From Methylophilaceae bacterium (GTDB taxonomy: Bacteria > Pseudomonadota > Gammaproteobacteria > Burkholderiales > Methylophilaceae): a stretch of DNA of 36,793 bases. Under the pieces are notes generated by a model. That model saw nothing but the letters and a program-made list of their open reading frames with translations. It searched no databases and was not told the DNA's origin. Location of the stretch: positions 1 to 36,793 of the forward strand of contig JACMMS010000105.1 in the NCBI GenBank assembly GCA_014378915.1. Reading direction: 5' to 3'. How positions within the stretch are numbered: the first letter of the stretch is position 1; each line of letters opens with the position of its first letter. A program made the position numbers and the translations under genes. Below are positions 5,273 to 36,121 of this stretch, one piece after another.

Positions 5273-6077
5273 AAGACGCCCAATTATTGGAATACCAGCC
5301 TGCATTAAAATGATAGGCGATCACCCTTTTCATGCAGCAGGAGCAAAATATATTAGCGCAGTAGTGAGTGCAGCTAACTGTATTCCCCTAGTATTACCAG
5401 CCATTGGCGATGAACAAGATTTAGACACTATTTTAGAATTAGTTGATGGTTTATTACTCACTGGCTCAGCTTCTAATATAGAACCTAGCCGCTATAACAC
5501 TCCCCTATTTAATGCTGATATGTTAATGGATACAGCAAGAGATGCCACCACTTTTCCTTTGATTGAAGCGGCTATTGCTGCTGGCATCCCTATTTTAGGC
5601 ATATGTCGCGGTTTTCAAGAAATGAATGTGGCATTTGGCGGTACATTGCACCAAGAAGTTCATACACGGCATCACCTGATGGATCATCGAGAAAAGTCTG
5701 GTACATTAGATGTGCAGTACGGTCCGTCACACCCTGTACAAATTACTGAAGGCAGTTTTTTACAGCACCTATTAAATGGCGCAGATGAGATCATGGTGAA
5801 TTCCATTCACGGACAAGGTATTGATCATCTTGGTTACAATTTATCAGCAGAAGCGCTAGCTCCAGATGGCCTGGTTGAAGCAATTCGAGTTACTAACGCA
5901 AAAACATTTGCATTAGCAGTGCAATGGCATCCAGAGTGGAAAGTGACTGAAAACTCCCAGTCATTGGCTATTTTCACTGCATTTGGCGATGCTTGTAAAG
6001 CGCATTTTGCAAGTAGAAGTTTAGTTCTAACTAAGGTTTTAGAAAGTCAGCGTTTTAAAGTTAAAGATTCATCATAA
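5265..6077 (+). CDS. puuD: Gamma-glutamyl-GABA hydrolase
   Basis: A class I glutamine-amidotransferase-like hydrolase that splits gamma-glutamyl-GABA into glutamate and GABA, the last step of the glutamylated putrescine pathway. The nucleophile Cys114 sits in ILGICRGFQEMNVAFGG and the rest of the triad, His222 and Glu224, in AVQWHPEW. The family feature of an N-terminal IGIPAC with a following HAAGAKYI is present. At 270 residues it is slightly longer than the E. coli enzyme (254). The start is set by an in-frame TGA at 5256-5258; the ribosome binding site is weak and translation may depend on the leader ORF that overlaps it. It is followed 18 bases later by puuA. The reading frame is intact. 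Confidence 0.93.
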   Translation: MNKRRPIIGIPACIKMIGDHPFHAAGAKYISAVVSAANCIPLVLPAIGDEQDLDTILELVDGLLLTGSASNIEPSRYNTPLFNADMLMDTARDATTFPLIEAAIAAGIPILGICRGFQEMNVAFGGTLHQEVHTRHHLMDHREKSGTLDVQYGPSHPVQITEGSFLQHLLNGADEIMVNSIHGQGIDHLGYNLSAEALAPDGLVEAIRVTNAKTFALAVQWHPEWKVTENSQSLAIFTAFGDACKAHFASRSLVLTKVLESQRFKVKDSS

Positions 6078-6095
6078 ATATAATAAGGTCATAGT

Positions 6096-7496
6096 ATGAA
6101 TAGAAAACATATAGCAAATGGTAAGCGAATAGCAGAGCGGGATAACGCAGGCTTTAATAAAATGGACGATTGGCTGAATAAGCATGGCGTTACCGAAGTT
6201 GAATGTTTAGTACCAGATATGACAGGGATTCCACGTGGGAAAATTTTACCGCGCGCCAAGTTTAACGAAGATAGAGGCATGCGCCTGCCAGAAGGTGTTT
6301 TGGGAATGACTGTTACGGGTGAATACCCTGAAGATGAGGCGTTTAATAAAGTCATACACGAAAGTGATCGTGATATGGTGCTCAAACCCGATCCTGATAC
6401 GGTGCGTATTGTGCCGTGGGCCGCTGACCCTACCGCACAAGTGATTCATGACTGCTTTACGTTTGATGATAATTTAGTAGAGCATGCGCCGCGCTCTGTT
6501 TTGCGTAAAGTGTTGGCGCTTTATGCAGAACAAGGCTGGAAACCAGTGGTTGCTCCAGAGTTAGAATTTTATATCGTGGCTCGCAACACCGATCCAGATT
6601 TGCCACTTCAACCCCCTATTGGCCGTAGCGGCCGCGCAGAATCTGGCCGTCAAGCTTACAGTATTGATGCAGTCAATGAATTCGATCCATTATTTGAAGA
6701 TATTTATGATTACTGTGAAAAGATGGAGTTAGAAATTGATACCCTCATTCATGAAGTCGGCACAGGGCAAATGGAAATCAACTTTCTACATGGTGACCCA
6801 TTGGAGTTGGCTGATAGCGTTTTCCTATTTAAGCGAACGGTAAGAGAAGCTGCTTATAGGCATGAAATGTATGCCACATTTATGGCAAAGCCAATGGCAG
6901 ATCAACCGGGTTCGGCGATGCACATTCATTTAAGTGTACAAGATGCAAAAACAGGTAAGAATATATTTTCACTTGATGATGGCAGCGATTCAGAACTATT
7001 TAGCCACGCCATTGGTGGCTTACAAAAATATTTACCAGCATCCATGGCGCTTTTAGCGCCATTTGTTAATTCATACCGCCGTTTGGTGCGTAACACCGCA
7101 GCGCCAATTAATGTGCAATGGGGTAGAGATAATCGCACCGTGGGCATCCGTGTTCCAGAATCAACTAAAGCAGCACGCCGCTTAGAAAACCGTGTTGCAG
7201 GTGTTGATGCAAACCCCTACATTGCCATGGCAACTACCCTAGCATGTTGTTATTTAGGCATGATGAACAACATTAACCCGACTCAAGAACTAGCAGGTAA
7301 TGGCTACAATCATGAGTATGAATTACCGCGCAGCCTCAATGCGGCCATCGATTTATTGCGCGCAACACCTGTTCTACACGAAATATTAGGTGAAAGCTTT
7401 ATTACGCTTTATCTCTCCGTAAAAGAGCTGGAATATGAAGAGTTTATGAAAGTGATTAGCCCGTGGGAACGTCGTCACTTGTTATTACATGTTTAA
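6096..7496 (+). CDS. puuA: Gamma-glutamylputrescine synthetase (glutamine synthetase-like)
   Basis: An ATP-dependent ligase of the glutamine synthetase fold that joins glutamate to putrescine (or another polyamine) as the first step of the Puu pathway. It has the N-terminal beta-grasp region (VECLVPDMTGIPRGKILP) and the catalytic domain with APELEFYIV, the metal/glutamate region HEVGTGQMEINF, the ATP-site signature KPMADQPGSAMHIHLS, and arginines in NRTVGIRVP and RRLENRVAG. Length 466 is close to E. coli PuuA (472). GlnA proper is excluded by the long N-terminal spacing and absence of the adenylylation-loop context. It lies between puuD and spuC in the same direction. Glutamylspermidine or other amine specificity cannot be excluded from sequence alone. 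Confidence 0.92.
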   Translation: MNRKHIANGKRIAERDNAGFNKMDDWLNKHGVTEVECLVPDMTGIPRGKILPRAKFNEDRGMRLPEGVLGMTVTGEYPEDEAFNKVIHESDRDMVLKPDPDTVRIVPWAADPTAQVIHDCFTFDDNLVEHAPRSVLRKVLALYAEQGWKPVVAPELEFYIVARNTDPDLPLQPPIGRSGRAESGRQAYSIDAVNEFDPLFEDIYDYCEKMELEIDTLIHEVGTGQMEINFLHGDPLELADSVFLFKRTVREAAYRHEMYATFMAKPMADQPGSAMHIHLSVQDAKTGKNIFSLDDGSDSELFSHAIGGLQKYLPASMALLAPFVNSYRRLVRNTAAPINVQWGRDNRTVGIRVPESTKAARRLENRVAGVDANPYIAMATTLACCYLGMMNNINPTQELAGNGYNHEYELPRSLNAAIDLLRATPVLHEILGESFITLYLSVKELEYEEFMKVISPWERRHLLLHV

Positions 7497-9161: not shown

Positions 9162-10313
9162 ATGAGATTACTAAACAAAAGTTTCACGAAAAAATATTTA
9201 GCCACCCTGCTTGCTGGCTTGACGATTATTAGCTTGGCTTCATGCGGCAAAAAAACTGAAGAAAAGCAAAAAGTAGTAGAAGAAGAAAAAGTATTGAACA
9301 TCTATAATTGGTCAGATTACATTGCACCAGATACCATTGCAAACTTTGAAAAAGAAACTGGCATTAAAGTGCGTTATGATAATTTTGACAACAATGAAAT
9401 TTTGCATGCAAAATTAATGGCAAAAAACACAGGTTACGACATTGTTGTGCCGAGTTCTAACTGGGCAAAATTACAAATGGAAGGTGGTTTGTTTCAAAAA
9501 CTAGATAAATCAAAATTAACTAATTATGGCAATTTAGACACAAGTATTTTAAAACAAATGTCTGTACTTGACCCAGGTAATGAATACTTGGTTGACTGGT
9601 TGTGGAGCTATAACACCGTTGGCATTAATGAAGATAAAGTCAAAGCAGCCCTTGGTGATACACCAATGCCGGATAATGCTTGGGATTTAGTATTCGACCC
9701 GAAATACACCAATAAATTAAAATCATGCGGCATCACTTTCTTAGATACGCCTACGGATGTGTTCCAAGCGGCTTTGCATTATTTAGGCAAACATGTAGTC
9801 AATGGTCCAGTTGAAGATTACCAACAAGCTTTTGATATGCTCATGAAAGTACGCCCTGATATCAAGCGCTTTTCATCAGGTGGTCAAATTGATGATTTAG
9901 CCAGCGGCAATGTATGCGTAGCCTATGGCTGGGCTGGTGACTTTAACTTAGCACGCAAACGCTCAATTGAAAATAAATCAGAGCAAAAAATTGTTGCTTT
10001 AGTACCAAAAACTGGTGGGTTAATGTTTATGGATACCATGGCGATTCCTGCTGATGCGCCACACCCTGACAATGCGCATAAGTTTATTAACTACGTGTTA
10101 CAACCCAAAGTAATTGCGGCGATTACTAATACTGTTACTTACGCTAACCCTAATAAAGCTGCAACAGAATTTCTTGATCCTGAGATCAAAGCTAATAAAT
10201 CTATCTTTTTAAGTGGTGAAGATGTTGCCAAATTAGTGCCTCCAAGTGTTGAAGACAGTAAAACAAAACGTATCATCACACGTTTATTTACTCAGTTTAA
10301 AACGGGTACTTAA
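9162..10313 (+). CDS. potF: Putrescine ABC transporter binding protein, lipoprotein form
   Basis: The substrate-binding component of a polyamine ABC importer, PotF/SpuD type. It has NIYNWSDYI near the N-terminus, PSSNW, YGWAGD and FMDTMAIPADA, which carry the Ser-Asp, Trp-Asp and Asp residues that contact putrescine in E. coli PotF. Overall length is 383 against about 370. Unlike E. coli PotF, the signal peptide ends in a lipobox, LASC with Cys28, followed by a highly charged linker (about residues 30-44), so it is predicted to be lipid-anchored rather than free in the periplasm. It heads the potF-potG-potH-potI operon in the same order as E. coli potFGHI. Putrescine rather than spermidine preference is inferred. 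Confidence 0.92.
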   Translation: MRLLNKSFTKKYLATLLAGLTIISLASCGKKTEEKQKVVEEEKVLNIYNWSDYIAPDTIANFEKETGIKVRYDNFDNNEILHAKLMAKNTGYDIVVPSSNWAKLQMEGGLFQKLDKSKLTNYGNLDTSILKQMSVLDPGNEYLVDWLWSYNTVGINEDKVKAALGDTPMPDNAWDLVFDPKYTNKLKSCGITFLDTPTDVFQAALHYLGKHVVNGPVEDYQQAFDMLMKVRPDIKRFSSGGQIDDLASGNVCVAYGWAGDFNLARKRSIENKSEQKIVALVPKTGGLMFMDTMAIPADAPHPDNAHKFINYVLQPKVIAAITNTVTYANPNKAATEFLDPEIKANKSIFLSGEDVAKLVPPSVEDSKTKRIITRLFTQFKTGT

Positions 10314-14841: not shown

Positions 14842-14877
14842 AGTAGGCAAGAAGTTGCCACCCCCTGCTAACAATTA

Positions 14878-16176
14878 ATGACTACCTTAGCCCAAAGATA
14901 TTACGAAGCCTCATTACTAGAGCCGCGCAGTGTTTATCCGTCATTTCATGGCAATATTGATTATGATATATGTATTGTCGGTGGTGGCTTCATGGGCTTG
15001 CACACTGCGTTAAATCTACAAGAGCGTGGTTTAAAAGTAGTATTACTAGAAGCGCAGCGCATAGGTTATTGTGCATCTGGACGTAATGGTGGGCATGTCA
15101 TTCTGGAATTTGGTGGCAGTCAACGTAATTTTGAAACGCATTTAGATTTAGCTAGCGCCCAGCAAGTTTTGCGTTTGGTGCATGATGCGGCAGAACACTT
15201 AAGTGAGCGAATTGCACGCTACAACATAGACTGTGATTACAAGCAAGGACATATTGTAGCCGCTATTACACCGAAACATGTCGCAGATTTAAGTGCATGG
15301 CAAGCGCATCTAGCGCAAAATTATGGTTATCAAAACCAATGGATTACACAAGATGAAATACCTCAATACATAGGCTCAGCGCGTTATTTAGTTGGTGCAT
15401 TAGATAAAAATGGCGGCCATTTACATCCAATAAAATTAGCCTTAGGTTTAGCGAAAGCTATTGCAGAAGGGGCTGGAGAAGTTTACGAAAATTCACCAGC
15501 AACAAAATGGAACAATGAAGGCAATAAAGTCCGTGTTAGTAGCCAAAATGGCGCAGTGATTTGTAATCAGCTTATGCTAAGCTGCAACGTGGGCATGGAA
15601 AACATGCATGCAAAACTCGCGCAAATGCTTGCCAAACGCATCTTACCAGTTGGCTCTTGGGTCATTGCATCAGCGCCTCTGGCAGATGAGTGAGCCCAGC
15701 AATTATTACATAGCAACTCCGCCGTTGTGGATATGCGTTTTATTTTAGACTACTACCGCTTATCCGCTGATAATCGCTTGATATTTGGTGGTGGCTGCAG
15801 CTACACAGGACAAGATTCACCACCCAATTTAATACAAGTGATGCGCGACAAAATGCTCAAAGTATTTCCGCACTTAAGTGAAACAAAAATAGAGTTTAGC
15901 TGGGGCGGATTGAGTGATATTTTAATGAATCGAATGGCAGACTTTGGGTATGCAGATGATTGTAAGCGTGTGTTATACGCTCAAGGTTTTTCAGTTTCTG
16001 GCATTGTCGCAACAACAGCTGCTGCCAAAGTAATCGCTGAAGCAGCAATTGGCGATAGAGCTAATTTGGCTATGTTTCAGCGTATACAACATACTTCTTT
16101 TCCTGGTGGAAAATGGCTGCGTGGACCAGTTACCGTGGCAGGCATGCTTTATCACCGCATGCTGGATTTAGTATAA
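14878..16176 (+). pseudogene. puuB: Gamma-glutamylputrescine oxidase with one in-frame TGA
   Basis: PuuB is an FAD amine oxidase of the DAO family that converts gamma-glutamylputrescine to the aldehyde used by PuuC. The FAD fingerprint IVGGGFMGLHTALNL and the family motif YCASGRNGGH are present, as is the C-terminal GGLSDILMNRMADFGY and the final FAD segment AQGFSVSGIVATTAAAK. A single TGA at 15691-15693 (codon 272, after APLADE) interrupts an otherwise open 432-codon frame; the sequence resumes at once as AQQLLHSNSAVV. Relatives commonly have leucine or arginine near here, so TTA or CGA to TGA is a one-base explanation. Without readthrough the product lacks the substrate-lid and C-terminal FAD parts and should be inactive. 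A sequencing error is possible for a single substitution. Confidence 0.88.
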
Positions 16177-20219: not shown

Positions 20220-20420
20220 GACTAAAAATACGATCATGTAGTGATTTGAAGTTGAGTTAACAATAAGTAGCTGTTGATTAAATAGAGTTAAACGCTAATA
20301 AATTTAATTGAATGTAAGTAAATCTAATGGCAATATAGTCATTGTAAGTGTGTTGGTTAATTGCAGGACATTGGTTTTAATAGCTATTTATAAAAACCAA
20401 TGTTGTAAAGTTAAAATTTC

Positions 20421-20452
20421 AAAGCATCCAAAGCATCCAAAGCATCCAAAGC
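20421..20452 (+). repeat. Tandem 9-bp repeat AAAGCATCC
   Basis: AAAGCATCC is repeated exactly three times, followed by a partial fourth AAAGC. It lies 53 bases before the permease start and next to purine-rich AT sequence. A 9-bp period leaves reading frames unaffected. Otherwise 20170-20504 shows no gene. Confidence 0.8.
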
Positions 20453-20504
20453 AAAAAAAGAGAAAGAGAAACACAACCATCAGTTCAATTTAAAGGGATA
20501 ATTT

Positions 20505-21982
20505 ATGAGTAACCAGCAAAACCTTGCAGCCGACGCGGATGCACAAAATCTAAAGAGTATGGGTTATGAACAAGAGCTGCACCGACATATGGGCGGCTTT
20601 TCAAATTTGCTATTTCTTTCTCAATTATTTGTATTTTGGCAGGTGGCATTAGTGCTTTTAATCAAGGTTTAGGTGCTGGTGCATCCCTCGTTATAGGCAG
20701 GCCTGTTGGTGGATTATTTGCTCTGATTGTTGCGATGGCAATGGCGCAAATAGCCTCCTCATACCAACTGCGGATGGCTTATATCATTTGAGCTCTACGT
20801 TAGGTGGCAAAGGTTACGGTTGGTCAACCGCATGGTTTAACTTACTAGGCTTAATTTTTGTTGCAGCTTCTGTCAATTTTGGCGTGTTTGACCCATTCTT
20901 TAAAACACTGATTGCACTAATATTAGGTATTGCACCAGAAGCAATGGGGGAAGCTTTTCAAATCGGATCCATTGCCTTAATTACAATCTCACAATAGGTT
21001 CTAAATGCTTATTTTCCCAAACTGACCGCTAAATTAACTGATATTTCAGGTTATCTTATTTTTATAATTGCTGTATCTCTCATCATTTCACTATTAGCCT
21101 ACAGCACAACACCACTTCATATTTCTAAGCTATTTACTTTTACCAACTTCACGGGTACTGAAGGTAATGTATGGTTCAAACGAGAAGGTATGTTATTACT
21201 ATTTTTGAGTGGACTACTACTCGTATGCTAAACCATTATAGGTTTTGATGCCTCAGCTCATACCCCAGAAGAAACGCATGATGCAGCAAACACGGTCCCA
21301 CGCGGCATTGCGAATGCAGTAATATATTCTGTCATTTTTGGCTTTGTTATGGTCGCGACTTTTGTTTTAGTGATGCCAGATTTAAGTGAAGGCGTTAAAT
21401 AAGGTTATACCTTTTTTGATGCCCTGTTACATCAATTACCAGATGGCTTACGCATCATTTTATCTATCGGTATTTTTGTTGTAAACTGTCTCTGTTGCCT
21501 CGCTTGCTTAACCTCATGTTCACGCATGATGTTTGCGTTCTCGCGCGATGGAGGCTTACCTGGCTATAGTATGTTGCGTGCAATTCACCCCCACATTAAA
21601 AACACCATTAATCGCTACTTGGGTTTCAGCAATACTAGCCGTTGCTGCTACATTATACGAGGATGTATTTTTAGTATTGGCCACAGGTAGTACCGTCTTT
21701 TTAAATATTTCTTATGTGATGCCAGTTGCCGCTGGACTATTTGCCGAAGGTAAAACTTGGACACACAAAGGACTATTTAACTTAAAAGGTTTATCTGAAC
21801 CTATTGCTATTTTGGCGGTATTAGGCGGCTCATTTTTAGCCTATTTAGGCATGCAACCACCCAAGGAAAAAGTGTTTTATTTAACTTTAATTATGTTGGT
21901 AGTGATGGCAGTATTCTGGTTTGTCTTTGGTAAGAAGAGACGCTTTACTGGCCCACCAAAAACGGATAAAACTATGCTTTAA
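20505..21982 (+). pseudogene. APC-family amino acid/polyamine permease, broken
   Basis: A 12-helix APC-superfamily permease (amino acid/choline transporter group). ATG 20505 has AAAGGG upstream. N-terminal MGYEQELHRHMGGFSN is typical. A one-base loss near 20601 shifts the frame (then ISAFNQGLGAGASLVIG), another near 20763 shifts it again (then LSSTLGGKGYGWSTAWFNLL). Further in-frame stops are TAG after ALITISQ (20995-20997), TAA in place of the tyrosine of the conserved TIxGFDASAHTPEET motif (about 21230), and TAA after LSEGVK (about 21400). The C-terminal part from FSRDGGLPGYSML is open to 21982. No functional protein is expected. With PotFGHI intact, this would have been a second importer for the same or a related substrate. 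Confidence 0.9.
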
Positions 21983-22002
21983 TAAAAATTTTAAGGCTTT
22001 GT

Positions 22003-22049
22003 TGCAATCAATTAGGAGGGGTGCAAATGCACCCTCCTAATTGATTGCA
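22003..22049. repeat. 22-bp near-perfect hairpin between convergent pseudogenes
   Basis: The arms TGCAATCAATTAGGAGGG... (22003-22025) and ...CCCTCCTAATTGATTGCA (22028-22049) pair over 22 bp with one bulged G and a two-base loop. It sits between the ends of the converging permease and patD pseudogenes. The position fits a bidirectional terminator, but there is no flanking T run on either side, and the length is unusual for one. It could be a fossil transposon end pair or a structured RNA. Confidence 0.6.
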
Positions 22050-22101
22050 GTTAACCTGCAATTGCTCAAATAAGACCTCTGTCTAAGAAAAAAATCATCG
22101 A

Positions 22102-23552
22102 TTAATGTTTGATCATGACATGTCTCACTACTGTGTAATCTTCTAAACTATAGCCAGATAAATTTTTACCATATCCCGATTGTTTCATACCACCATGTGG
22201 CATCTCAGAAACCAGCATAAAATGCGTGTTGACCCATGTACAGCCATACTGCTGCTAAGCAGAGAGCGCATTGCTTTGCTGATATCTTGCGTCCATACTG
22301 AAGATGACAAGCCGTAGTCTGAATCATTGGCTAGCGCAATCGATTCATCTATGCCCTCAAAGCTTGTAATAGTTACAACTGGCCCAGATACTTCACGAGC
22401 AACTATCTCGTCTAATTGAAATGCGCCAGCCATGACTGTGGGTGCATAAAAGAAACCAGCAGAATCGAGTATTTTTCCCCCAACGGTTACTTCTACGTGT
22501 TTTTCAGCTGCAGCATGCTCAACAAAGCCAGCCACGCGCTCTAACTGCCTAGTACTCCTTAGAGAGCCTATTTCCACGCCGTCTTCTTTTTGTGTGCCCA
22601 CTTTAATCGCAGCAACTGCAGCTGAATAATCTGCAACAAATTGTTCATAAATTTTATCTTCAACATACAAGCGGCAAGTGGCTGTGCAATCTTGCCCTGC
22701 GTTGTAAAATCCAAATGCACACAATCCCTCAATTGCAGCCTGAATATCTGCATCGTTAAATACAATTACAGGCGCTTTACTATCTAGCTCTAAATGCGTG
22801 CGCTTAATACCATTTGCAGCATTTTCAAGCACTCGCTTACCTGTACCAACATCACCAATAATTGAAGTAATGCGCACTTGTGGTTGCGCAATCAGTGGTG
22901 CACCTACTGTTTGTCCGCGTCCAAGTACAATATTGACTATGCCTTAAGGGAAAAAAATTTTAGTAATTAGTTCAGCTAATTTCAAGGTGGTTAACGGCGT
23001 CATTTCAGATGGCTTCAACACACAGTTATTACCCACTGCTAGGGCCGGGGCTAACTTCCAAGCAGCCATCATTAATGGGTAATTCCATGGCGCTATAGAA
23101 GCTACTACGCCTACAGGGTCACGACGTATCATACTAGTGTGACCAGCCAAATACTCCCCCGCAGCGCTACCACTCATACTGCGGGCAGCACCAGCAAAAT
23201 AACGGAATACATCAGCAACAGCCGGCAACTCATCATTGAGTACTGCTAAATATGGCTTACCACGGTTGAGAGACTCTAACTCTGCAAAGATCTCTGCATT
23301 TGCATCAATACTATTAGCCAGCGTTAAAAGTAATGCCGTCCTATCTTTAGGCACTGTTTTACTCTAAGCTGGAAAAGCATTCGCGGCGGCTTGAGTCACA
23401 ATCTCAACCTGCTCGATTGAGGCTTCTTTAATTTGAGCGATTATTTGACCACTGGCAGGATTTACAATAGCTTCATCCGGCTCTTGTCCTGTAACAAATT
23501 CAACATTGATTAATAGTTTATTTAATTGGGTATGTTGTTGAGTTTATTCCAT
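22102..23552 (-). pseudogene. patD: 4-aminobutyraldehyde dehydrogenase, broken
   Basis: An aldehyde dehydrogenase of the PatD/YdcW group, which oxidises 4-aminobutyraldehyde from putrescine transamination to GABA. The strongest identifier is the C-terminus WVNTHFMLVSEMPHGGMKQ and LEDYTVVRHVMIKH; NAGQDCTATCR keeps the catalytic cysteine. Lesions: TAA as codon 3 (start ATG 23550-23552), TAG near 23367, TAA at 22944-22946, and a frameshift near 22260. The conserved ELGGKAP has become ELDSKAP, so missense decay is also under way. Restored length about 483. It converges on the permease pseudogene, and its partner reaction, SpuC, is intact 14 kb away. Confidence 0.9.
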
Positions 23553-23624: not shown

Positions 23625-24518
23625 TTACCAAGTACGTTTAACGTAGAACCATAACTTTGCTTCATTTATATCTCTTAAATCATTAGAAACCCAAAAGTTC
23701 TGATTCTTTACAGAAAATGTATCAGTGTAGTATGCACCAGCATTAAAGCCAGTAATTGGTTTACCACCAGAAGGTAGGCTAAAATCTCTGTTCAAACCAA
23801 TTGCAAAGTCACCTTGATCAGCGCCATGTGATCCATATAAGTCTTTATCAATATCCGGAGCTTTTTGATAACCAACTTTAGCCATAAAGTTTATGTCACC
23901 TAATGGTAATTTGTAATTCACTTTTAACTCATGATATTGAGTGTTTTTTGTGTCACCACCGCCATTAGGGCCACTTATTTTTCTTAAGCCGTAATAATTA
24001 CTTAATAGATTATAGTAAGTGTAAGTAAAATATTTATATGTTAGTGCAGCAGAAACCTCAAAAGAGTCTTGTTTATGACCGTCAAGAGAGTTATGGCCTT
24101 CAAAGTATTTATAATAGTTTCCTAAAAAGTTAACACCAAAACCATTATCAAAGCTGTGAGCATAACCACCATAAAAGTCTGTTTCAATATGGTTACCCTT
24201 TGAAAGGCCATCAACTTTTCCGTATGCATAAGGATCTAAATTTGAAAACCATGTTCCTAAGTAAAAACCACTGCTATGCGCCCAATCAATACCACCTTGC
24301 ACAGCTGGGCCATCGCTATAATCAACACCGCGGAACATGTAATTACTATACAAACCGAGGTTATAAGTAAGTGTATACGGTGGTGCTGGTTCTGCAGGTG
24401 CCGCAGCTTCAGTAGCTGCAGGAACTGGCATTTCATCAGCTTGAGCAAAACCCATATTTAAAAATAATGGCGCTGCACAAAGTGCTGCTAGTGCATGTTT
24501 ACTTAACACTTTATTCAT
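23625..24518 (-). CDS. TorF/gcw_chp family putative outer-membrane porin
   Basis: A predicted outer-membrane beta-barrel of the gcw_chp family (TIGR02001, also called TorF putative porin). The signal peptide covers residues 1-27 with a cleavage after AQA, followed by an Ala/Pro/Glu-rich linker to about residue 46. The barrel starts with the family hallmark LGLYSNYMFRGVDYSDGPAVQGG and shows alternating aromatic strands to the end at KLWFYVKRTW, an aromatic C-terminus as outer-membrane assembly requires. In betaproteobacteria such genes often sit by glnK-amtB; that pair is not here. Start ATG 24516-24518 has AAAGGG upstream. The substrate is unknown; a nitrogenous solute would fit the neighbourhood but is inference. 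Confidence 0.85.
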   Translation of the reverse strand: MNKVLSKHALAALCAAPLFLNMGFAQADEMPVPAATEAAAPAEPAPPYTLTYNLGLYSNYMFRGVDYSDGPAVQGGIDWAHSSGFYLGTWFSNLDPYAYGKVDGLSKGNHIETDFYGGYAHSFDNGFGVNFLGNYYKYFEGHNSLDGHKQDSFEVSAALTYKYFTYTYYNLLSNYYGLRKISGPNGGGDTKNTQYHELKVNYKLPLGDINFMAKVGYQKAPDIDKDLYGSHGADQGDFAIGLNRDFSLPSGGKPITGFNAGAYYTDTFSVKNQNFWVSNDLRDINEAKLWFYVKRTW

Positions 24519-24849
24519 ATCTTTACCCTTTTCTTTGAAAAATTGTCTTTTTAGTTAATTTGCTAATGATGCTTTAAATTTATTGTGCTTCTTCACTCAA
24601 TGCCTTATGTTTTATCATTGGACATTTGAGTAAAAAAAATTATTAACATTGTTAACACAACTTAATTTAACCCTATTAATCATCACAGGTCTAGGACCAA
24701 CTTCATCAATAGCGACACTAACCTTAGTAATTGCGACTTTTATGCAAAATATATATTAGCACGTTGTAAATTTGCAACAAATATAGGTTTTCAGTAGTTG
24801 ATTTGCTACAAAGGTAAGTTAAATAACCTGTTCAATTAGCTTAATTGGA
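24519..24849 (-). promoter_or_regulatory. Upstream region of porin gene with palindromes
   Basis: This 331-bp gap lies between the porin start and the end of rep, both on the minus strand. It holds a perfect 13-bp palindrome TTAACATTGTTAA (24643-24655) about 125 bases upstream of the porin, and GGTCTAGGACC (24688-24698). Either could bind a regulator. No gene is visible. A rep terminator is not obvious. Confidence 0.4.
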
Positions 24850-27152: not shown

Positions 27153-27242
27153 ATGAGTTGGTTAACCATCTTAAGCGGCATCACAAGTGTGTTGCTATTA
27201 ATTTATTTATTGTATGCATTAATTAAACCGGAGAATTTTTAA
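27153..27242 (+). CDS. kdpF: KdpF small subunit of K+-transporting ATPase
   Basis: A 29-residue single-helix protein, [20 protein letters not shown] followed by YALIKPENF, which matches KdpF in length, hydrophobicity and the YALI-x-PE-F ending. KdpF stabilises the KdpABC complex in the inner membrane. GGAG at 27142-27145 is the ribosome binding site. The stop TAA overlaps the kdpA ATG by one base, so translation is coupled. Confidence 0.88.
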
Positions 27243-29062
27243 TGAACGCGAACATGCTCATTCAATACGGTTTATATTTTGCCGTTATTTTATTGCTCAT
27301 TAAGCCAATGGGAGTATTCATTGCAAGCGTTATGGAAGGTAATACGCCTTTACTTAACAAAATTGGCGGCCCCGTTGAACGGTTACTTTATAAATTAGGT
27401 GGTGTTAACGCAAAAGTAGAAATGGATTGGAAAGCTTATGCCATCGCACTTTTAGTGTTTAACACACTAGGCATTTTAGTGTTGTTTTTACTTCAACGCT
27501 TACAGCTTTCATTACCTTTAAACCCGCAACAATTTTCTAATGTGAGTGTTGATTCATCATTGGATACCGCAGTGAGTTTTATAACCAATACCAATTGGCA
27601 AGGTTATGCGGGCGAAAGTACGATGAGCTACTTTACGCAGATGGTGGGACTAACAGTACAAAACTTCTTATCTGCAGCTACTGGTATTGCGGTGGTGATT
27701 GCCATGATTCGCGGATTTGCTAGGCATTCGGCTAAAACCATTGGTAATTTCTGGGTTGATCTCACGCGCTCTACTTTGTACATTTTATTACCTTTCTCTC
27801 TGCTTTTTGCAGTGATATTTATGAGCCAAGGCGTAATACAAAATTTTAGTAGCTATCAAAACGTGATTACGCTTGAGACTACTAGTTACCAACAACCAAA
27901 ACTTGACAACACAGGTAACCCGTTAAAAGATGCAAAAGGTGATGCCGTTTTAGAAAACTTAACAACTAAAACGCAAACCCTAGCCATGGGTCCTGTAGCC
28001 TCACAAGAAGCCATCAAAATGCTAGGTACTAACGGTGGGGGCTTCTTTAATGCTAATTCAGCACACCCTTATGAGAATCCCACGCCACTTACTAACTTTT
28101 TGCAAATGGTACTGATTTTCTTAATACCTGCTGGGTTTTGCTACGCATTTGGCATGATGGTAGGTGATACACGTCAAGGTTGGGCGGTATTCGCGGCAAT
28201 GGGATTAATTTTTATAGTAATGGCAACGGTGCTTGTTTCAGCAGAACAAGCAGGCAACCCTGCATTTACAGCAGCCAGTTTGAATTCAGCAGGCGTAGAT
28301 CAAACTAGTAGCGCTCTGCAAGCTGGTGGCAACATGGAAGGTAAAGAAACCCGGTTTGGTATTGTGGCTTCATCATTATTTGCCACCATAACCACAGCAG
28401 CCTCTTGTGGCGCAGTCAACGCCATGCATGATTCACTCACTCCTATTGGCGGGCTTGTATCGCTGTGGTTGATTCAGTTAGGTGAAGTGGTGTTTGGCGG
28501 TGTAGGTTCTGGGCTTTATACCATGTTGATTTACGCGATTTTAGCTGTATTTGTTTCAGGTTTAATGATAGGTCGTACGCCAGAATATTTAGGTAAAAAA
28601 ATTGAGATTTTTGAGATGAAAATGTCATCTATCATTATTTTGGTCACGCCAATATTAGTGCTAATAGGGACTGCAATTGCGGTGATGGTCGAACCAGGTA
28701 AAGCTGGCATTGCCAACCCAGGCGCACATGGCTTTAGTGAGGTGCTATACGCGGTTTCGTCTGCAGCTAATAACAACGGCAGTGCATTTGCTGGCATCTC
28801 TGCCAACACGCCTTTTTATAATTACTTATTAGCAATTGCCATGTGGTTTGGCCGGTTCGGTATCATCATTCCAGTATTAGCGATTGCTGGTGCACTGGCA
28901 GCTAAAAAACGTATTCAGCCTGGGCTTGGTACTTTGCCAACGCATGGTCCATTGTTTGTGATTTTATTGATAGGCGTGGTGATTTTAGTGGGTGCCCTCA
29001 CTTATGTACCAGCCTTGGCGCTAGGGCCAATCGTTGAGCATTTAATGATGCTAGCTAAATGA
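27242..29062 (+). CDS. kdpA: Potassium-transporting ATPase subunit KdpA
   Basis: The channel-like K+-binding subunit of the high-affinity Kdp ATPase in the inner membrane, evolutionarily related to the Trk/Ktr group. Ten or more hydrophobic segments can be seen. Selectivity-filter-type sequences include [20 protein letters not shown] and [11 protein letters not shown], and [20 protein letters not shown] is a conserved family stretch. At 606 residues it exceeds E. coli KdpA (557), mainly through an added polar loop around residues 200-250, as in other beta-proteobacterial KdpA. Followed 55 bases later by kdpB. Confidence 0.95.
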
Positions 29063-29117: not shown

Positions 29118-31214
29118 ATGTCTACAGAAGCAATTTATCAAGAAACATTGCCTAAAGAAAAAATGTCGATGTTTGACAAAAAGTTACTAACACCTGCGAT
29201 TATAGATTCGTTTAAAAAACTAAGTCCACAAACTCAATGGCGCAACCCTGTGATGTTTGTTGTGTATTTAGGTAGTATTTTAACCACACTATTGTTCTTA
29301 CAAGCTTTATTTGGCAAGGGTGAAGCATCAGCAGGCTTTATTCTGCTAGTGTCAATTTGGTTGTGGTTCACTGTGTTATTTTCTAACTTTGCCGAAGCCC
29401 TGGCTGAAGGTCGTAGTAAAGAGCAAGCGGCTGCATTAAGGCAATCTAAAAAGAACGTGGTTGCCAAAAAGTTAGCTAATACAAAGCATGATTCTGCAGT
29501 AACTTTGACCGATAGTGCCAGCTTACGTAAAGGCGATATCATTTTAGTAGAGGCTGGCGACACCATTCCAGCTGATGGTGAAGTGGTAGAAGGTATTGCA
29601 TCTGTAAATGAGTCCGCCATTACGGGTGAATCTGCACCAGTTATTCGTGAGTCTGGTGGGGATTTCAGTGCAGTAACAGGCGGTACACTGGTGCTATCAG
29701 ATTGGATTGTAGTATGCGTGACCGTGAACCCAGGTGAGGCCTTTTTAGACCGTATGATTGCGATGGTAGAGGGTGCAAAACGCCAAAAAACGCCCAATGA
29801 AATCGCATTAACTATTCTTTTAGTAGCACTAACCATCGTGTTTTTATTAGCAACAGTGACCTTGTTACCCTTCTCATTATTTAGCGTACAAGTCGCGGGT
29901 GCTGGCCACCCAGCCACTATTACCGTATTAGTTTCATTGCTAGTTTGTTTGATTCCTACCACCATTGCAGGTTTGCTTTCTGCGATTGGTGTGGCAGGCA
30001 TGAGCCGCATGATGCAAGCCAATGTAATAGCCACTTCTGGCCGTGCGGTAGAGGCAGCTGGGGATGTTGACGTATTGCTACTTGATAAAACCGGCACCAT
30101 TACTTTGGGAAATCGCCAAGCTTCGGCCTTTGTAGCAGCGGCTGGTATTAGTGAAAGTGAATTGGCAGAAGTAGCACAACTCGCTTCACTTGCTGATGAA
30201 ACACCAGAAGGTCGTAGTATTGTCGTATTAGCCAAAAATAAGTTTGATTTACGAGAACGCAATATGGCGACTTTAAACGCCACCTTTGTACCCTTTACTG
30301 CCCAAACCCGTATGAGCGGCATTAACGTTGGTGAACGAGCTATTCGTAAAGGTGCAGCCAGCGCAATTAAGCTTTATGTTGAATCACTAGGCGGCACGTT
30401 TGCTGTGGAAGTCACTACAAAAGTAGATGATATTTCACGCCGAGGTAGCACACCTTTAGTCGTGGCTGATGGTGCAAAAGTAGTCGGTGTAGTTGAGCTT
30501 AAAGACATTGTAAAAGGCGGCATTAAAGAGCGTTTTGCAGAACTACGCGCAATGGGTATTAAAACCATCATGATTACAGGTGATAATCGTTTAACAGCAG
30601 CCTCAATCGCTGCAGAAGCAGGTGTTGATGACTTTTTAGCCGAAGCCACACCAGAAGCTAAATTAGCATTGATTCGCGAACACCAATCACAAGGCAAGCT
30701 GGTTGCCATGACGGGTGATGGCACAAATGATGCGCCAGCACTTGCTCAAGCCGATGTTGCTGTAGCAATGAATACTGGTACGCAAGCCGCAAAAGAAGCG
30801 GGCAATATGGTAGATTTAGATTCCAACCCTACCAAACTGATTGAGATTGTAGAAATTGGTAAGCAAATGTTGATGACACGTGGCTCGCTGACCACATTTA
30901 GTATTGCTAACGATATTGCCAAATATTTCGCGATTATTCCTGCGGCATTCGCGACGACTTACCCTGCTTTAAATACCCTGAATGTCATGCACTTAACCAG
31001 CCCAAACTCAGCGATTTTATCAGCCGTTATTTTTAACGCACTGATTATTATGTTCTTAATCCCGTTAGCGTTAAAAGGTGTGCCTTATCATGCAGTTGGC
31101 GCAGCAACTTTATTGCGTAATAATCTACTGATATACGGTTTAGGCGGCATCATTGTGCCATTCATAGGAATCAAAATTATTGACATTTTATTGACTGTTC
31201 TAGGTTTAGTTTAA
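29118..31214 (+). CDS. kdpB: Potassium-transporting ATPase ATP-binding subunit KdpB
   Basis: The P-type ATPase subunit that energises K+ uptake through KdpA. Phosphorylated Asp323 is in [14 protein letters not shown]; the A-domain motif SAITGESAP holds the serine whose phosphorylation switches off E. coli KdpB; the hinge motif is [20 protein letters not shown] and [17 protein letters not shown] is also present. Length 698 (E. coli 682). The ribosome binding site is AAAGGAT. Frame intact and codon use as in its neighbours. Confidence 0.96.
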
Positions 31215-31248: not shown

Positions 31249-31836
31249 ATGAAAGAAACTTTACGCCCAGCGATTAGTTTGTTCTTAGGCCTTACCATTA
31301 TTACTGGGGCGGTTTATCCCCTAATAACTACTGGCATTGGCAAAACGCTCTTCCCTAGCCAAGTAGCGGGTAGCTTAGTTAAACAAGGTGATGTAGTGGT
31401 TGGCTCAACATTAATCGGCCAAAGCTTTACCCATGCCAAATACTTTTGGGGCAGACCATCTGCTACTGGGCCCTACCCCAATAATGCTGCGGCTTCTTCT
31501 GGCTCAAATCTTGGGCCATTAAACCCAGCTTTAACAGAAACGATTAAAGGTCGTATAGCTGAGTTAAAACAGGTTGATCCTGATAATACTTTGCCAATAC
31601 CTGTTGATTTAGTGACGGCCTCTGCAAGTGGTTTAGACCCTGAAATTAGCCCCGCTGCTGCCAATTACCAAGTTAACCGTGTGGCAAAAGCACGTGGTTT
31701 ACAAGCTGACCAAGTAATTGAATTAGTACAAAAAAATACACAAGCTAGGCAACTTGGCGTACTGGGTGAGGCGCGTGTAAACGTATTGGCGCTTAATATG
31801 GCATTAGATGCATCTATCACTAAGGAGGCGAAATAA
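31249..31836 (+). CDS. kdpC: Potassium-transporting ATPase subunit KdpC
   Basis: A single-span inner-membrane subunit with a periplasmic domain that aids K+ affinity of KdpABC. The N-terminal helix runs about residues 7-25 ([20 protein letters not shown]). Family motifs [51 protein letters not shown] and [11 protein letters not shown] are present. Length 195 (E. coli 190). AAGGAGG lies at its 3' end, 14 bases before the next ORF, and may serve it. Confidence 0.95.
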
Positions 31837-31842
31837 ATCGTC

Positions 31843-32100
31843 ATGAATGCCTCTCAACCTTTTAATATTAGGCCCTATTTGAATAAAAAAATTGAGAAAA
31901 AAATGATTATTCGAGTAATAGTTGATGAGCAATATGCTGAACTCTTAAAAAGAACCGTCATCAGCACTTTTGGCAGTTGCATTGATTTTATTAAAGTGCA
32001 GCCTTTAGCGTATACCCACTCTGTAAAAATGTGGTTTGATGTCACATTATCCGTTATGGAGCGTGTGATGAATACCATCATGCGTGTTTTCCAGCGTTGA
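31843..32100 (+). CDS. Unknown small protein between kdpC and kdpD
   Basis: An 85-residue ORF of no family I recognise, starting 6 bases after kdpC with AAGGAGG 14 bases upstream; an internal ATG at 31903 would give 65 residues. From residue 21 the sequence (MIIRVIVDEQYAELLKRTVI, then SCIDFIKVQPLAYTHSVKMWFDV, split here, and VMNTIMRVF) has a beta-alpha-beta-beta-alpha pattern like a ferredoxin-like or ACT/PII fold; that is a guess from hydrophobic pattern alone. The position inside the kdp locus and tight spacing favour a role with KdpABC or KdpD. The reverse strand frame across it is likely a shadow. Confidence 0.6.
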   Translation: MNASQPFNIRPYLNKKIEKKMIIRVIVDEQYAELLKRTVISTFGSCIDFIKVQPLAYTHSVKMWFDVTLSVMERVMNTIMRVFQR

Positions 32101-32189
32101 CTATCAATGAGCGTAAACATCATTAACAATCATTTATTTGAGCGCGCTTTATATTAATTCTATGCAGTTAAACCTATGAAGTTAAAGCT

Positions 32190-32437
32190 ATGAATGATTT
32201 TTCTCAAGAATTTTAATAATTTTAAAAAACGGTTCATTTCAAACTGACTTACAAAAGCAGCTTTCGGATTACTTTCCACACTTTTGCCCAGTTTGTGGTA
32301 AACATCATATGGTCAAAGACGTAAGACATGAAATATCTTACGGTAAGGCTTGTACCTGTAGTTTTGATTGTGAAACCATACGTAGAAAAAACTGGTGGCA
32401 TTTTTCTGTTAGGGCGAATGTGCACACTGAGTGTTAA
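32190..32437 (+). pseudogene. Cys-rich zinc-ribbon-like ORF lacking an intact start
   Basis: A frame open from 32198 to TAA 32435-32437 encodes SDYFPHFCPVCGKHHMVKDV, then RHEISYGKACTCSFDCETIR and RKNWWHFSVRANVHTEC. The CPVC, CTC and DCE cysteines and paired histidines suggest a zinc-binding module. There is no ATG upstream in this frame; ATG 32190 opens another frame (MNDFSQEF) that stops at once, and a small frameshift near 32215 would join the two. Either the gene is broken or it uses a non-standard start. It lies between the unknown ORF and kdpD in the same direction. I do not know a function. Confidence 0.45.
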
Positions 32438-32497: not shown

Positions 32498-35269
32498 ATG
32501 ATTACACGTCCAGACCCTGATCAATTACTAGAAAAAATTCAGCTAGATGACGCTAAACAAAAGCGCGGCCGGCTAAAAATATTTTTTGGTGGCTGTGCAG
32601 GCGTTGGTAAAACTTTTGCCATGCTTTCAGCGGCTAAAATTATTTACAGGGAAAACATTGATGTTATCGTTGGTATCATTGAAACCCATGGTCGGGCAGA
32701 TACTGAGCGCCAATTAGAGGGTTTACCCTTGTTACCCCGTAAAACCATGTTATACCGTGGGCGTGACCTCACTGAGTTTGATATCGATGCAGCCCTAATA
32801 CGTAAGCCTGCCTTGATCCTTATAGATGAGCTAGCGCATTCTAATGTCGAAGGCTCACGCCATCCTAAACGCTGGCAAGATGTTGAGGAGCTGCTGGCAG
32901 CAGGTATTGATGTTTACAGCACGCTTAATGTGCAACATCTGGAAAGCTTAAACGATGTGGTTGGACAAATCACTGGCGTGCGTGTGGCAGAAACTTTGCC
33001 GGATAAAGTATTTAATTTAGCAGATGAAGTGACGCTAGTAGATTTATCGCCAGAGGAGCTTTTGCGCCGTCTGCAAGATGGTAAAGTGTATATTCCGCAA
33101 CAGGCAGAGCAAGCGAAAAAGAACTTCTTTCGTAAAGGTAATTTAATCGCTCTACGGGAAATGGCGCTGCGCAGAACCGCTGACCGAGTCGATGCGCAAA
33201 TGCGTGAATATCGTGCGGATCAATCCATTAAGCCAATTTGGCAGGCACATGATCGTATTTTAGTAGCGGTAGGTTCAGGGAATGAAGCTGAGCAATTGGT
33301 CCGCGCTACAGCACGTTTGGCCGCCAGTTTAAAAGCTGATTGGTTAGCAGTTTATGTAGAAACGCCCGCTTTACAAAAGCTCACTGACGCTGCGCGTGAT
33401 GCCATTTTAAAAACTATGCGTTTAGCACAAGATTTAGGAGCAGAAACTGCCACTCTAAGTGGCACCGAAATCAGCACCGTGCTACTGGATTATGCGCGTA
33501 GCCGAAATGTGTCTAAATTGGTCGTGGGTAAACCTTCACGTTCGCTTATTTCACGATTTTTTAGCCCAAGCGTGACTGACTTATTGGCACGCGATGCCAT
33601 TGATGTTGATATCCATATTGTCGTGCGGCAAGACGAAACAAAAAAAGAATACCAACCCAACATTGCGATTAGAACTGCGTTCGGTTTAAGTAATGAACAA
33701 GCGAGTCAAATAAAAAAACGTGGCTATATTTGGGCGTTAGTTGCCAGTATTGTTGCATCAATACTCTCTAATTTATTGCTGCATTTCTTTGAGCTGTCTA
33801 ATCTCATCATGCTTTATTTACTGGGTGTGATGCTTATTTCAGCCAAATTTGGTCGCGGACCTGGGCTGTTCGCTTCTGTGTTGAGCGTATCCGCATTTGA
33901 TTTCTTTTTGGTGCCTCCACGCTTCTCTTTTTCAATTGCTGACACCCAGTATTTGCTGACTTTTGTGGTGATGTTCTCGGTTTCGCTCGTGATTAGTAAT
34001 CTCACCTCAAATTTACGTTACCAGGCGGTTGTAGCCAATTATCGCGAAAGACGTAGCCGTGTTTTATATGATTTAGGTAAACAACTAGCTTCTGCACTCA
34101 CTTCCAGCCATATTGTAGAAATCAGCACACACCATTTAGCGGGTATTTTTCAATCTAAAATAGCCATCGTATTACCCAATAGCCATGATAAGTTGCAAGA
34201 ACAACAAGCTGATTTAGCAAACAGTAAAATCGCAACAGTAGATACTGGTATATCGCAATGGGTGTACGACCATCAAGAAGAAGCAGGTTTAGGTACCAAT
34301 ACCCTGCCTTCTAGCGCAAAACTTTACTTGCCGCTAAAAGCCCCTATGCGCACACGCGGTGTCTTGGCGATTGAACCCGAAACAATTAGCGAGATTTTTT
34401 TACCTGAACAGCGACAATTGCTAGATACATTCGCCGCGCAAATTGGTTTAGCATTGGAGCGCGTACATTATGTAGAAGTAGCCCGTGATGCTTTGATTAA
34501 TATGGAATCTGAACGCTTACGCAACTCATTATTAAGCGCTATTTCACATGATTTACGCACACCGCTCACGTCTATTTTAGGCATCAGTGGCATTTTAAAA
34601 GCACAGGCTGATGCTAGTAATACAGACTTTAATGACAATCAAGTAAGCATGATTAATGCGCTGTATGAGCAAACTTTCCGTATGCAACAATTAGTCATTA
34701 ACTTACTAGATATGGCTCGCATACAATCGGGCAAGGTGCAGCTAAATCGGCAATGGCAAATGCTAGAAGAAGTGGTCGGGACGTCCATTCGTATGATGCG
34801 CCCAACACTCGTTAAGCATCAGATTAATGTAAGTATCCCAGTAGATTTGCCGCTGTTGCAGTTTGATGCAGTGATGATTGAGCGTGTACTATGCAATCTA
34901 TTGGATAATGCTTGTAAATACACGCCAGAAAATTCAGTGGTTAACATTACAGCAATAAAAAACGGTACTGATGTTTGGGTATCTGTCGCAGACAATGGTC
35001 CTGGTTTACCACCAGACCGTGAATTACAAATATTTGATAAATTTACCCGCGGTGAAAAAGAATCAGCCAAACCAGGTGTTGGGCTAGGCTTATCTATTGG
35101 CCAAGCCATTATTCAAGCGCATGATGGTAAAATTTGGGCCGAAACACAAATACCACATGGCGCACTCTTTATATTTTCCTTACCAATAGGCACGCCACCC
35201 ACCATGCCAGCGCTAGAAGAGATTTCAGCAGAAATTTCAGCGGAAACTTCGGAGCAAGTAAAAGAATAG
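32498..35269 (+). CDS. kdpD: Osmosensitive K+ channel histidine kinase KdpD
   Basis: The membrane sensor kinase that turns on kdpFABC at low K+ or high osmolarity through KdpE. Domains in order: N-terminal KdpD domain (about 1-215) with Walker A GGCAGVGKT (Lys38) and IDELAHSN; a universal-stress-protein domain (about 245-375); four close transmembrane segments (about 405-500, starting WALVASIVASILSNLLLHF); a GAF domain (about 525-665); HisKA with His684 in LSAISHDLRTPLTSILG; and HATPase with DNACKYTPENS and VADNGPGLP. Length 923 (E. coli 894). No ribosome binding site of note precedes the ATG. The C-terminus is extended by a Glu/Ser-rich tail. Confidence 0.95.
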   Translation: MITRPDPDQLLEKIQLDDAKQKRGRLKIFFGGCAGVGKTFAMLSAAKIIYRENIDVIVGIIETHGRADTERQLEGLPLLPRKTMLYRGRDLTEFDIDAALIRKPALILIDELAHSNVEGSRHPKRWQDVEELLAAGIDVYSTLNVQHLESLNDVVGQITGVRVAETLPDKVFNLADEVTLVDLSPEELLRRLQDGKVYIPQQAEQAKKNFFRKGNLIALREMALRRTADRVDAQMREYRADQSIKPIWQAHDRILVAVGSGNEAEQLVRATARLAASLKADWLAVYVETPALQKLTDAARDAILKTMRLAQDLGAETATLSGTEISTVLLDYARSRNVSKLVVGKPSRSLISRFFSPSVTDLLARDAIDVDIHIVVRQDETKKEYQPNIAIRTAFGLSNEQASQIKKRGYIWALVASIVASILSNLLLHFFELSNLIMLYLLGVMLISAKFGRGPGLFASVLSVSAFDFFLVPPRFSFSIADTQYLLTFVVMFSVSLVISNLTSNLRYQAVVANYRERRSRVLYDLGKQLASALTSSHIVEISTHHLAGIFQSKIAIVLPNSHDKLQEQQADLANSKIATVDTGISQWVYDHQEEAGLGTNTLPSSAKLYLPLKAPMRTRGVLAIEPETISEIFLPEQRQLLDTFAAQIGLALERVHYVEVARDALINMESERLRNSLLSAISHDLRTPLTSILGISGILKAQADASNTDFNDNQVSMINALYEQTFRMQQLVINLLDMARIQSGKVQLNRQWQMLEEVVGTSIRMMRPTLVKHQINVSIPVDLPLLQFDAVMIERVLCNLLDNACKYTPENSVVNITAIKNGTDVWVSVADNGPGLPPDRELQIFDKFTRGEKESAKPGVGLGLSIGQAIIQAHDGKIWAETQIPHGALFIFSLPIGTPPTMPALEEISAEISAETSEQVKE

Positions 35270-35422: not shown

Positions 35423-36121
35423 ATGACAGAACACACTAATACAATTATTGTGATTGAAGATGAGCGGCAGATACGCCGCTTTATCATCGCGTCATTAGAA
35501 AATGCTGGCTTGCAGGTATATAGTGCAGAAACTGGCCAGCAAGGCTTAATTGAAGTTGGCACACGCAAACCAGATACTGTGGTGCTTGATCTTGGCTTGC
35601 CAGACATGGAAGGTGTTGAGGTCATCATGCAAATCCGCAGCTGGAGCACAGTACCCATTATTGTATTATCTGCAAGGACAGATGAAGCCGAAAAAGTTAA
35701 AGTACTAGATGCTGGTGCAGACGATTACTTAATCAAACCATTTGGTAGCGCGGAACTGCTAGCAAGAATTCGTGCACAACTGCGCCGCCGTAGCTTGGCT
35801 ACTGAAGGTAATAGCAATAATGGCTTATTTATGTTTGGCGAGATTACAGTCGATTTGACCAGACGACTCGTAAGCAAAGGCGCAGAGCCAGTGCATCTCA
35901 CCCCCATTGAATTCAGGTTGCTAACCGTGCTGATTAGAAATACAGGTCGCGTCGTAACACAACGCCAACTACTCAAAGATGTATGGGGGCCTAGCTTTGT
36001 AGAAAGCAGTCATTATTTAAGAATTTACATGGGACATTTACGGCAAAAACTTGAAGCGGATGCGACACAACCTAAATATTTGATGACTGAAACTGGTGTA
36101 GGCTATAGGTTGGTTAATTAA
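35423..36121 (+). CDS. kdpE: KdpE response regulator
   Basis: An OmpR/PhoB-type response regulator that binds the kdp promoter. Receiver domain: acidic pair EDE near the start (residues 11-13), phosphoacceptor Asp56 in VVLDLGLPDMEG, conserved Ser in IIVLSARTDEAEK and Lys in DYLIKPFG. C-terminal winged helix: HLTPIEFRLLTVLIRNTGRV and SHYLRIYMGHLRQKLE. Length 232 (E. coli 225). Separated from kdpD by a putative 145-bp element that ends five bases before the ATG and leaves only a weak ribosome binding site (GAGGTACCC). Confidence 0.95.
   Translation: MTEHTNTIIVIEDERQIRRFIIASLENAGLQVYSAETGQQGLIEVGTRKPDTVVLDLGLPDMEGVEVIMQIRSWSTVPIIVLSARTDEAEKVKVLDAGADDYLIKPFGSAELLARIRAQLRRRSLATEGNSNNGLFMFGEITVDLTRRLVSKGAEPVHLTPIEFRLLTVLIRNTGRVVTQRQLLKDVWGPSFVESSHYLRIYMGHLRQKLEADATQPKYLMTETGVGYRLVN

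Follow-up and report, generated by a model that had tools for sequence, protein, structure and literature searches.

The stimulus to which the Kdp pump and its sensor kinase respond is still debated, and an extra gene inside a kdp locus raises the question of whether its product belongs to that system. Such a gene lies in a 36,793-nucleotide stretch of a Methylophilaceae genome (contig JACMMS010000105.1, assembly GCA_014378915.1), hereafter the window. The original prediction placed an open reading frame of 85 (or 65) residues 6 bases past kdpC, and these coordinates are confirmed: the frame opens at its first ATG at 31843, past the kdpC TAA that ends at 31836, and closes with a TGA after 85 codons. 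A second ATG, at 31903, would leave 65 codons and coincides with the onset of the conserved family core. The possible ribosome-binding site is 14 bases from the first ATG, a rather long spacing. One copy of the small frame is present in the window's own genome. The TorF porin lies ~2.7 kb upstream of kdpA with a helicase-like frame in between. The features are as follows.

23628..24554, minus strand: TorF-family putative porin (TIGR02001; NCBIfam match)
27242..29062, plus strand: kdpA (open reading frame; reference, matched by kdpA of other loci)
29118..31214, plus strand: kdpB (open reading frame; reference in the locus comparison)
31249..31836, plus strand: kdpC (Pfam KdpC, E 1.3e-72)
31822..31828, plus strand: AAGGAGG, possible ribosome-binding site of the small frame, within the end of kdpC (read directly)
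31843..32100, plus strand: small ferredoxin-like, probably PII-like protein, 85 residues (65 from 31903; homology and model)
32198..32437, plus strand: zinc-ribbon open frame (CPVC...TCSxxCE), between the small frame and kdpD
32498..35269, plus strand: kdpD (open reading frame; reference in the locus comparison)
35423..36121, plus strand: kdpE (open reading frame; reference in the locus comparison)

Used alone in a search of 61 genomes, the 85-residue protein matched a sequence in a genome of another family (G043; E 5.6e-7) that shares 87-99% identity with six Collimonas loci. At E 0.01, a two-row profile gave matches in 8 of the order's 399 genomes and in 7 of the 187 genomes of the window's family, some of them false. 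Excluded were the order-scan match in G339 (31 residues within a longer unrelated frame) and, from the family scan, those in G516 (29 residues of a 200-residue frame) and in G437 and G451 (both with internal stops); KdpC was not found in the last three genomes. A ten-row profile, with at most 14 candidates scored per genome, matched at least 12 of the 399 genomes, of which rows G323 and G351 were excluded as pieces broken by internal stops. The small frame goes beyond a chance opening, since it alone matched G043 and a two-sequence profile then found further relatives. From codon 21 to codon 85 it stays open and matches the family profile, which includes the window sequence, at E 2.9e-23. The family core measures ~74 residues, and its common C-terminal motif, LPxAE[FI]GRI, corresponds to strand β4.

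With only the window protein as query, the first scan of the named genomes gave no match. The second used the C-terminal motif as its pattern, so that copies without the motif could not show up, and returned 18 loci: six Collimonas, two contigs of one Oxalobacteraceae MAG, Agitococcus, Fluviicoccus, Sulfuriferula, a Burkholderia, a Burkholderiales MAG, two Gallionella, a Janthinobacterium and two Gallionellaceae. Two contigs are common to both sample sets (L127 is G227, and L135 is G187). At the limits used, neither the window protein nor the Collimonas one showed a relative on plasmids.

Consistent with the earlier remark that the product has no name in the standard kdpFABC-DE set, no curated family was found for it: Pfam, searched to E 10, gave a sub-threshold STAT_int match alone, NCBIfam gave nothing, and PHROGs gave one weak match of unknown function (two such matches overall). 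Sub-threshold matches alone were obtained when 21 family members were compared with Pfam. DUF7767, the most frequent of these, was set aside (sub-threshold in 4 of 21 members, best E 0.0023), as were DUF5576 (sub-threshold in three of 21) and four more Pfam families seen in one member each. Among open-licence papers on kdp together with a small protein, DHDPS, TorF, a PII-like protein or a hypothetical protein, none on the gene was found. Judged from its homologues, the open frame is a member of a real family that is absent from the protein-family catalogues searched; the small protein is new to them as a family and ordinary in size.

Relatives of the window frame are under purifying selection, with dN/dS of ~0.1 by the Nei-Gojobori method on the family core. 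Values ranged from 0.04 to 0.16 across 15 Collimonas pairs; the Sulfuriferula pair gave 0.109 and two Gallionella-group pairs 0.129 and 0.089, and another Gallionella-group pair was saturated at silent sites (pN/pS 0.20). For genus g19, the dapA-linked copy gave 0.072 and the copy in the kdpC-kdpD gap 0.29, the latter resting on very few changes. The excess of synonymous change, whose absence had been named as telling against the prediction, was therefore found; the figures come from relatives, as the window copy itself has no near relative among the sequences found.

Predicted fold and likeness to PII proteins

The ferredoxin-like hydrophobic pattern on which the original prediction drew agrees with the predicted models. 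The model of the window frame runs strand-helix-strand-strand-helix and then ends, without the last strand (mean pLDDT 86.1), and the AlphaFold model of the intact Sulfuriferula protein (L127; pLDDT 86.9) forms a full β-α-β-β-α-β unit (E14-22 H23-40 E41-48 E54-62 H63-76 E81-87) with a five-residue turn between β2 and β3. In comparisons with Foldseek and VIA-align, the intact model matched EF-2-type chains first (1n0v, Z 11.4, rmsd 1.5, 74 residues), through what we take to be EF-G domain V; shell proteins ranked after them, and PII-like 5d4o stood at rank 43 with a TM of 0.62. With Foldseek, the window model gave no match under E 0.001, and among its rows above that value were regulatory chains of threonine deaminase and acetohydroxyacid synthase. 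Matches to spliceosome/EF-2 chains, KH domains, V-ATPase subunit a and shell proteins were set aside as reflecting a common fold alone. Because EF-G domain V gave no sequence signal, we read the structural matches as shared fold only; the ferredoxin-like fold is common and says nothing on function.

In two profile searches of all PDB sequences, PII proteins made up 11 of the 13 rows of one and 8 of the 10 of the other; these rows represent one family and are not independent, and none is significant (best E 0.12). The alignment spans β3 to the loop before β4; a further N-terminal piece keeps the PII register with ~17 residues, the T-loop, absent, and scores only −0.9 bits. Carrier genomes yielded 35 PII sequences, and twelve of these made up a PII profile; hhalign aligned the family to it with P 7.3e-4 over 65 columns in one comparison and 3.3e-4 over 36 in another, at its own probability of 26% and 38% (26-43% across all comparisons). 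On core-trimmed columns, none of 200 column shuffles reached either PII score, and reversed profiles dropped to noise. By comparison, the real score was reached by 29-34 of 200 shuffles for EF-G domain V (profile of twelve of 29 sequences found; hhalign P 0.21) and by 11-13 of 200 for the zinc ribbon. Further hhalign controls used one EF-G sequence and part of kdpC. EFG_C (PF00679) showed no sequence profile similarity above shuffles. None of the 21 members matched Pfam P-II (PF00543) or Pfam ACT at E up to 1, and ACT proteins were absent from the PDB profile searches up to E 10. These profiles suggest that a remote kinship to PII, not membership, is probable. The likening of the protein to signal-binding domains is thus upheld in part: the PII-like profile and its shuffle test speak for it, and the database E value falls short of significance.

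PII proteins are marked by a T-loop, a B-loop motif and a C-terminal tail; Gram-positive bacteria have PstA/DarA, a PII-like receptor for c-di-AMP. With PII and PII-like proteins (GlnB/GlnK, SbtB, CPII, PstA/DarA) the family has in common its size, its ferredoxin-like fold and its best profile match. Unlike PII, it has no T-loop, being ~17 residues shorter between β2 and β3, carries LPxAE[FI]GRI in place of the B-loop motif, and lacks the C-terminal tail. ACT and ACT-like domains belong to the same fold class but, as described above, are missing from the Pfam and PDB profile results. EF-G domain V, the closest structural match without sequence signal, is part of a large GTPase, whereas the family member is a small protein. 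EIIA-Ntr (PtsN) is a phosphoprotein of an unrelated family, and its fold is unrelated to the one predicted for the small protein.

Links between PII proteins and transporters are documented. In PMC10710835, PII proteins act on transporters, the amtB-glnK linkage is recorded, and the regulation of ammonium and bicarbonate transporters by PII-type proteins constitutes the textbook cases. The family gene is likewise linked to transporter genes, as glnK is to amtB (PMC10710835), yet the linkage is to potassium loci and not to ammonium or bicarbonate transport. In the open-licence literature, no PII-type regulator of Kdp itself was found. EIIA-Ntr is a known accessory regulator or partner of KdpD outside KdpFABC-DE (PMC9239096), which makes an accessory regulator in such a kdp locus not outlandish. 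PtsN-like genes occur in four related kdp loci, and the one tested scored above the Pfam EIIA cut-off and below the NCBI PtsN cut-off. KdpF resembles the small protein in being a small extra product of the kdp operon, but it is a 30-residue membrane peptide (PMC3618439), whereas the small protein has a predicted globular fold.

Company of kdp and dapA-type genes

The small gene lies between kdpC and kdpD in six genomes, two of them by a weak match. The clear gap copies are those of the window, G461, G192 and G227 (the Sulfuriferula genome, L127); G471 and G477 have a divergent copy in the gap (E 0.02) and carry a second, clear copy beside a dapA-like gene just past kdpE. Among the 187 genomes of the window's family, the small gene occupies the gap at 4 of 22 KdpC regions (two at E 0.02) and was not seen, in the stretches read, at the other 18. 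The Sulfuriferula locus and G192, which has the same genus label, are arranged as kdpA-kdpB-kdpC-small gene-TorF porin-zinc ribbon-kdpD-kdpE. Seven of the 18 named loci (L126, L127, L128, L132, L134, L135 and L136) also have kdp genes in view, and together with the gap copies they bear out a recurring position beside kdp.

Most relatives, however, have another neighbor. In every named locus but that of Sulfuriferula (17 of 18), a dapA-type gene immediately follows a copy on the same strand; of the three copies in the Janthinobacterium MAG locus, one is so placed. The dapA pair is near kdp, Kup or cation-exchanger genes in 12 of the 17 named loci that have it. Kup is in view in L129 and L127, and a cation-exchanger gene labelled ChaA in five Collimonas loci (the one tested is Pfam Na_Ca_ex). 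No kdp was found in the DNA examined from the six Collimonas loci, an absence that says little because several contigs are short. All four dapA-type copies tested match Pfam DHDPS; one Collimonas copy scored 257.8 against a cut-off of 206.15 as a DapA equivalog, and the paired copies of G171 and G285 fell just below the equivalog cut-off. Genomes with the pair of small gene and dapA (G043, G187, G171, G190, G471, G477 and G285) hold at least two DapA-family genes, and the gap-only genomes (the window genome G000, G461, G192 and G227) one each. Because most relatives adjoin a dapA-type gene and not the kdpC-kdpD gap, Kdp may not be the direct partner of the family. The original view of the product as a candidate Kdp accessory factor therefore holds as far as its recurrence beside kdp goes, and is weakened by the dapA neighbors of most relatives and by the truncation of the window copy.

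Several further observations concern these loci. A dapA-type gene stands directly beside the small gene in L119-L126, L128-L136, L034, L035 and L041-L043, and in several cases the two belong to a kdp locus. In genomes whose DapA-family genes were counted, it is a second one; a potassium-linked DHDPS has no obvious explanation. The three small-gene copies of the Janthinobacterium MAG locus near kdp are at L134:3345-3668, 6065-6406 and 9526-9849. A large protein is encoded between dapA and kdpD at L041:2870-4657 (the same contig as L135:2870-4657) and L136:10099-11838; that of L041, the one tested, ends in a CorA-like membrane region (Pfam CorA, 2e-9). In two genomes of the window's family, a divergent P-II homologue and the better-scoring dapA are ~2 kb apart (G471:C1:677093-680380 and G477:C1:293970-297248).

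KdpC was present in all 13 credible carriers tested, or in 14 of 15 if G323, which has KdpC, and G351, which has none, are retained. Within the window's family, the gene occurs in 4 of 22 KdpC genomes versus 0 of 165 without KdpC (Fisher p 1.5e-4), the zero excluding three weak rows judged false, with which 3 of the 165 KdpC-less genomes would be carriers. Outside that family, KdpC was found in 9 of 9 carriers versus 6 of 23 non-carriers sampled from same-order genomes other than G043 (p 1.8e-4); both p values ignore shared ancestry.

The original prediction overlooked the zinc-ribbon frame (32198-32437) before kdpD and the fact that the small frame ends ahead of the C-terminal family motif. 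In the window the zinc ribbon comes after the small gene; in G461 it and the small protein are fused, and in Sulfuriferula it is a separate gene with a membrane-like segment. Across the 399 genomes, it adjoins kdpD or lies one gene off in all ten strong matches (E below 1e-8), that of G092 among them. Related kdp loci also hold PtsN-like, CorA and TorF genes, and in some relatives a TorF-family gene adjoins both kdp and the small gene. In kdp loci, a minus-strand open frame just ahead of the zinc ribbon encodes a protein of 124-142 residues that follows the PtsN-like gene where this is in view; the one tested matched no Pfam or NCBIfam family.

L094:1643-2062, L095:1621-1995, L096:1640-2011, L097:1618-2043 and L098:1618-2043, minus strand: the 124-142-residue protein

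State of the window copy

Whether the window copy still works is a separate question from the function of the family. The window frame stops (32098-32100) just short of the C-terminal motif, strand β4, and because of this truncation the copy may no longer be functional. With β4 missing and the zinc ribbon lacking a usual start codon (no ATG, GTG or TTG precedes its first Cys pair), the copy is either decaying or spoiled by contig errors.

Decay, in which the frame, once part of a fused or two-gene arrangement, would have lost β4 and the zinc-ribbon start and be a functionless remnant, is in our estimate about as likely to be right as wrong. The position of the stop, the several stops that interrupt each of the three frames over 32098-32223, the missing zinc-ribbon start and the interruption of at least four other genes on the contig all point this way. 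Wear of a zinc-ribbon gene has also occurred elsewhere: between kdpC and kdpD of G092 there is a 50-codon zinc-ribbon-like frame (L099:1492-1641) that has lost its first Cys pair. Against decay, codons 21-85 remain open with the strong profile match given above, to which the window sequence itself contributed, and the surrounding kdp genes are whole. We think it rather unlikely that the truncation and split are instead assembly errors and that the organism has an intact protein. Several other contig genes are broken by stops or frame changes, as such errors would produce, and the codons of the next frame past the break, SSVDYQ and then a stop, bear only a loose likeness to the motif; however, several stops per frame in 32098-32223 are more than one slip explains.

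Four frames elsewhere in the window, at 3955-4959, 14872-16173, 22188-23363 and 20300-22100, are broken by in-frame stops or frame changes; named by eye, they are alanine racemase-like, FAD oxidase-like, aldehyde dehydrogenase-like and permease-like.

Possible roles of the family

Based on the profile likeness and the gene neighborhoods, we propose that this uncatalogued family of small proteins, which keeps company with potassium loci, is a putative minimal PII-like regulatory partner, a proposal to which we give an even chance. The small protein would be a cytoplasmic subunit, probably an oligomer, working like a minimal PII: sensing either a metabolite or its partner's state, it would switch a neighboring protein of the potassium locus. 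In the kdpC-kdpD gap, the switched partner might be KdpD or the Kdp pump, and beside dapA it might be the extra DHDPS. The zinc-ribbon protein, next to kdpD and fused in one genome, could be the adaptor of the small protein.

A less probable account makes the small protein a regulatory or assembly partner of the neighboring DHDPS. Its location at kdp would then be second-hand, reflecting the membership of the pair as a whole in a set of potassium-limitation genes, and dapA would have been lost from the gap copies. The directly upstream, same-strand position in 17 of 18 named loci fits this account, as do the DapA-family counts, at least two in pair genomes and one in gap-only genomes. Set against it, gap copies persist without a second dapA, the G461 copy is fused to the KdpD-adjacent zinc ribbon, and the Sulfuriferula pair is conserved (dN/dS 0.11); because of this persistence, fusion and conservation, a role without a second dapA seems likely.

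More speculatively, and with little confidence, the T-loop-less PII-like protein might be a potassium-status switch common to two branches of potassium limitation, Kdp and the extra DHDPS. The gap copy would tune the Kdp sensor or pump via the zinc-ribbon adaptor, and on the dapA side the protein would release or drive the extra DHDPS, such that lysine, a cation, replaces the missing potassium. In PMC5573677, lysine and other cationic amino acids rescue potassium-starved Bacillus subtilis. That the frame is a chance opening without a product is scarcely credible: it is short, has no curated family and gave no match in the first named-genome scan, but its homology, the selection in its relatives and its recurring position all contradict this.

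We return to the PII-like regulatory partner. In potassium loci the family is probably just that, its function, partner and ligand being what we infer. The extended kdp island is found in Burkholderiales-type genomes, and the dapA pair also in two MAGs labelled Agitococcus and Fluviicoccus; the island gains concrete neighbors in the zinc ribbon, the TorF porin, the PtsN-like protein, CorA and the extra dapA. Should the small protein prove to be a PII-like partner, whether of Kdp or of a DHDPS linked to potassium, the pump and its sensor kinase would gain a direct input, and potassium supply would be tied to lysine synthesis.
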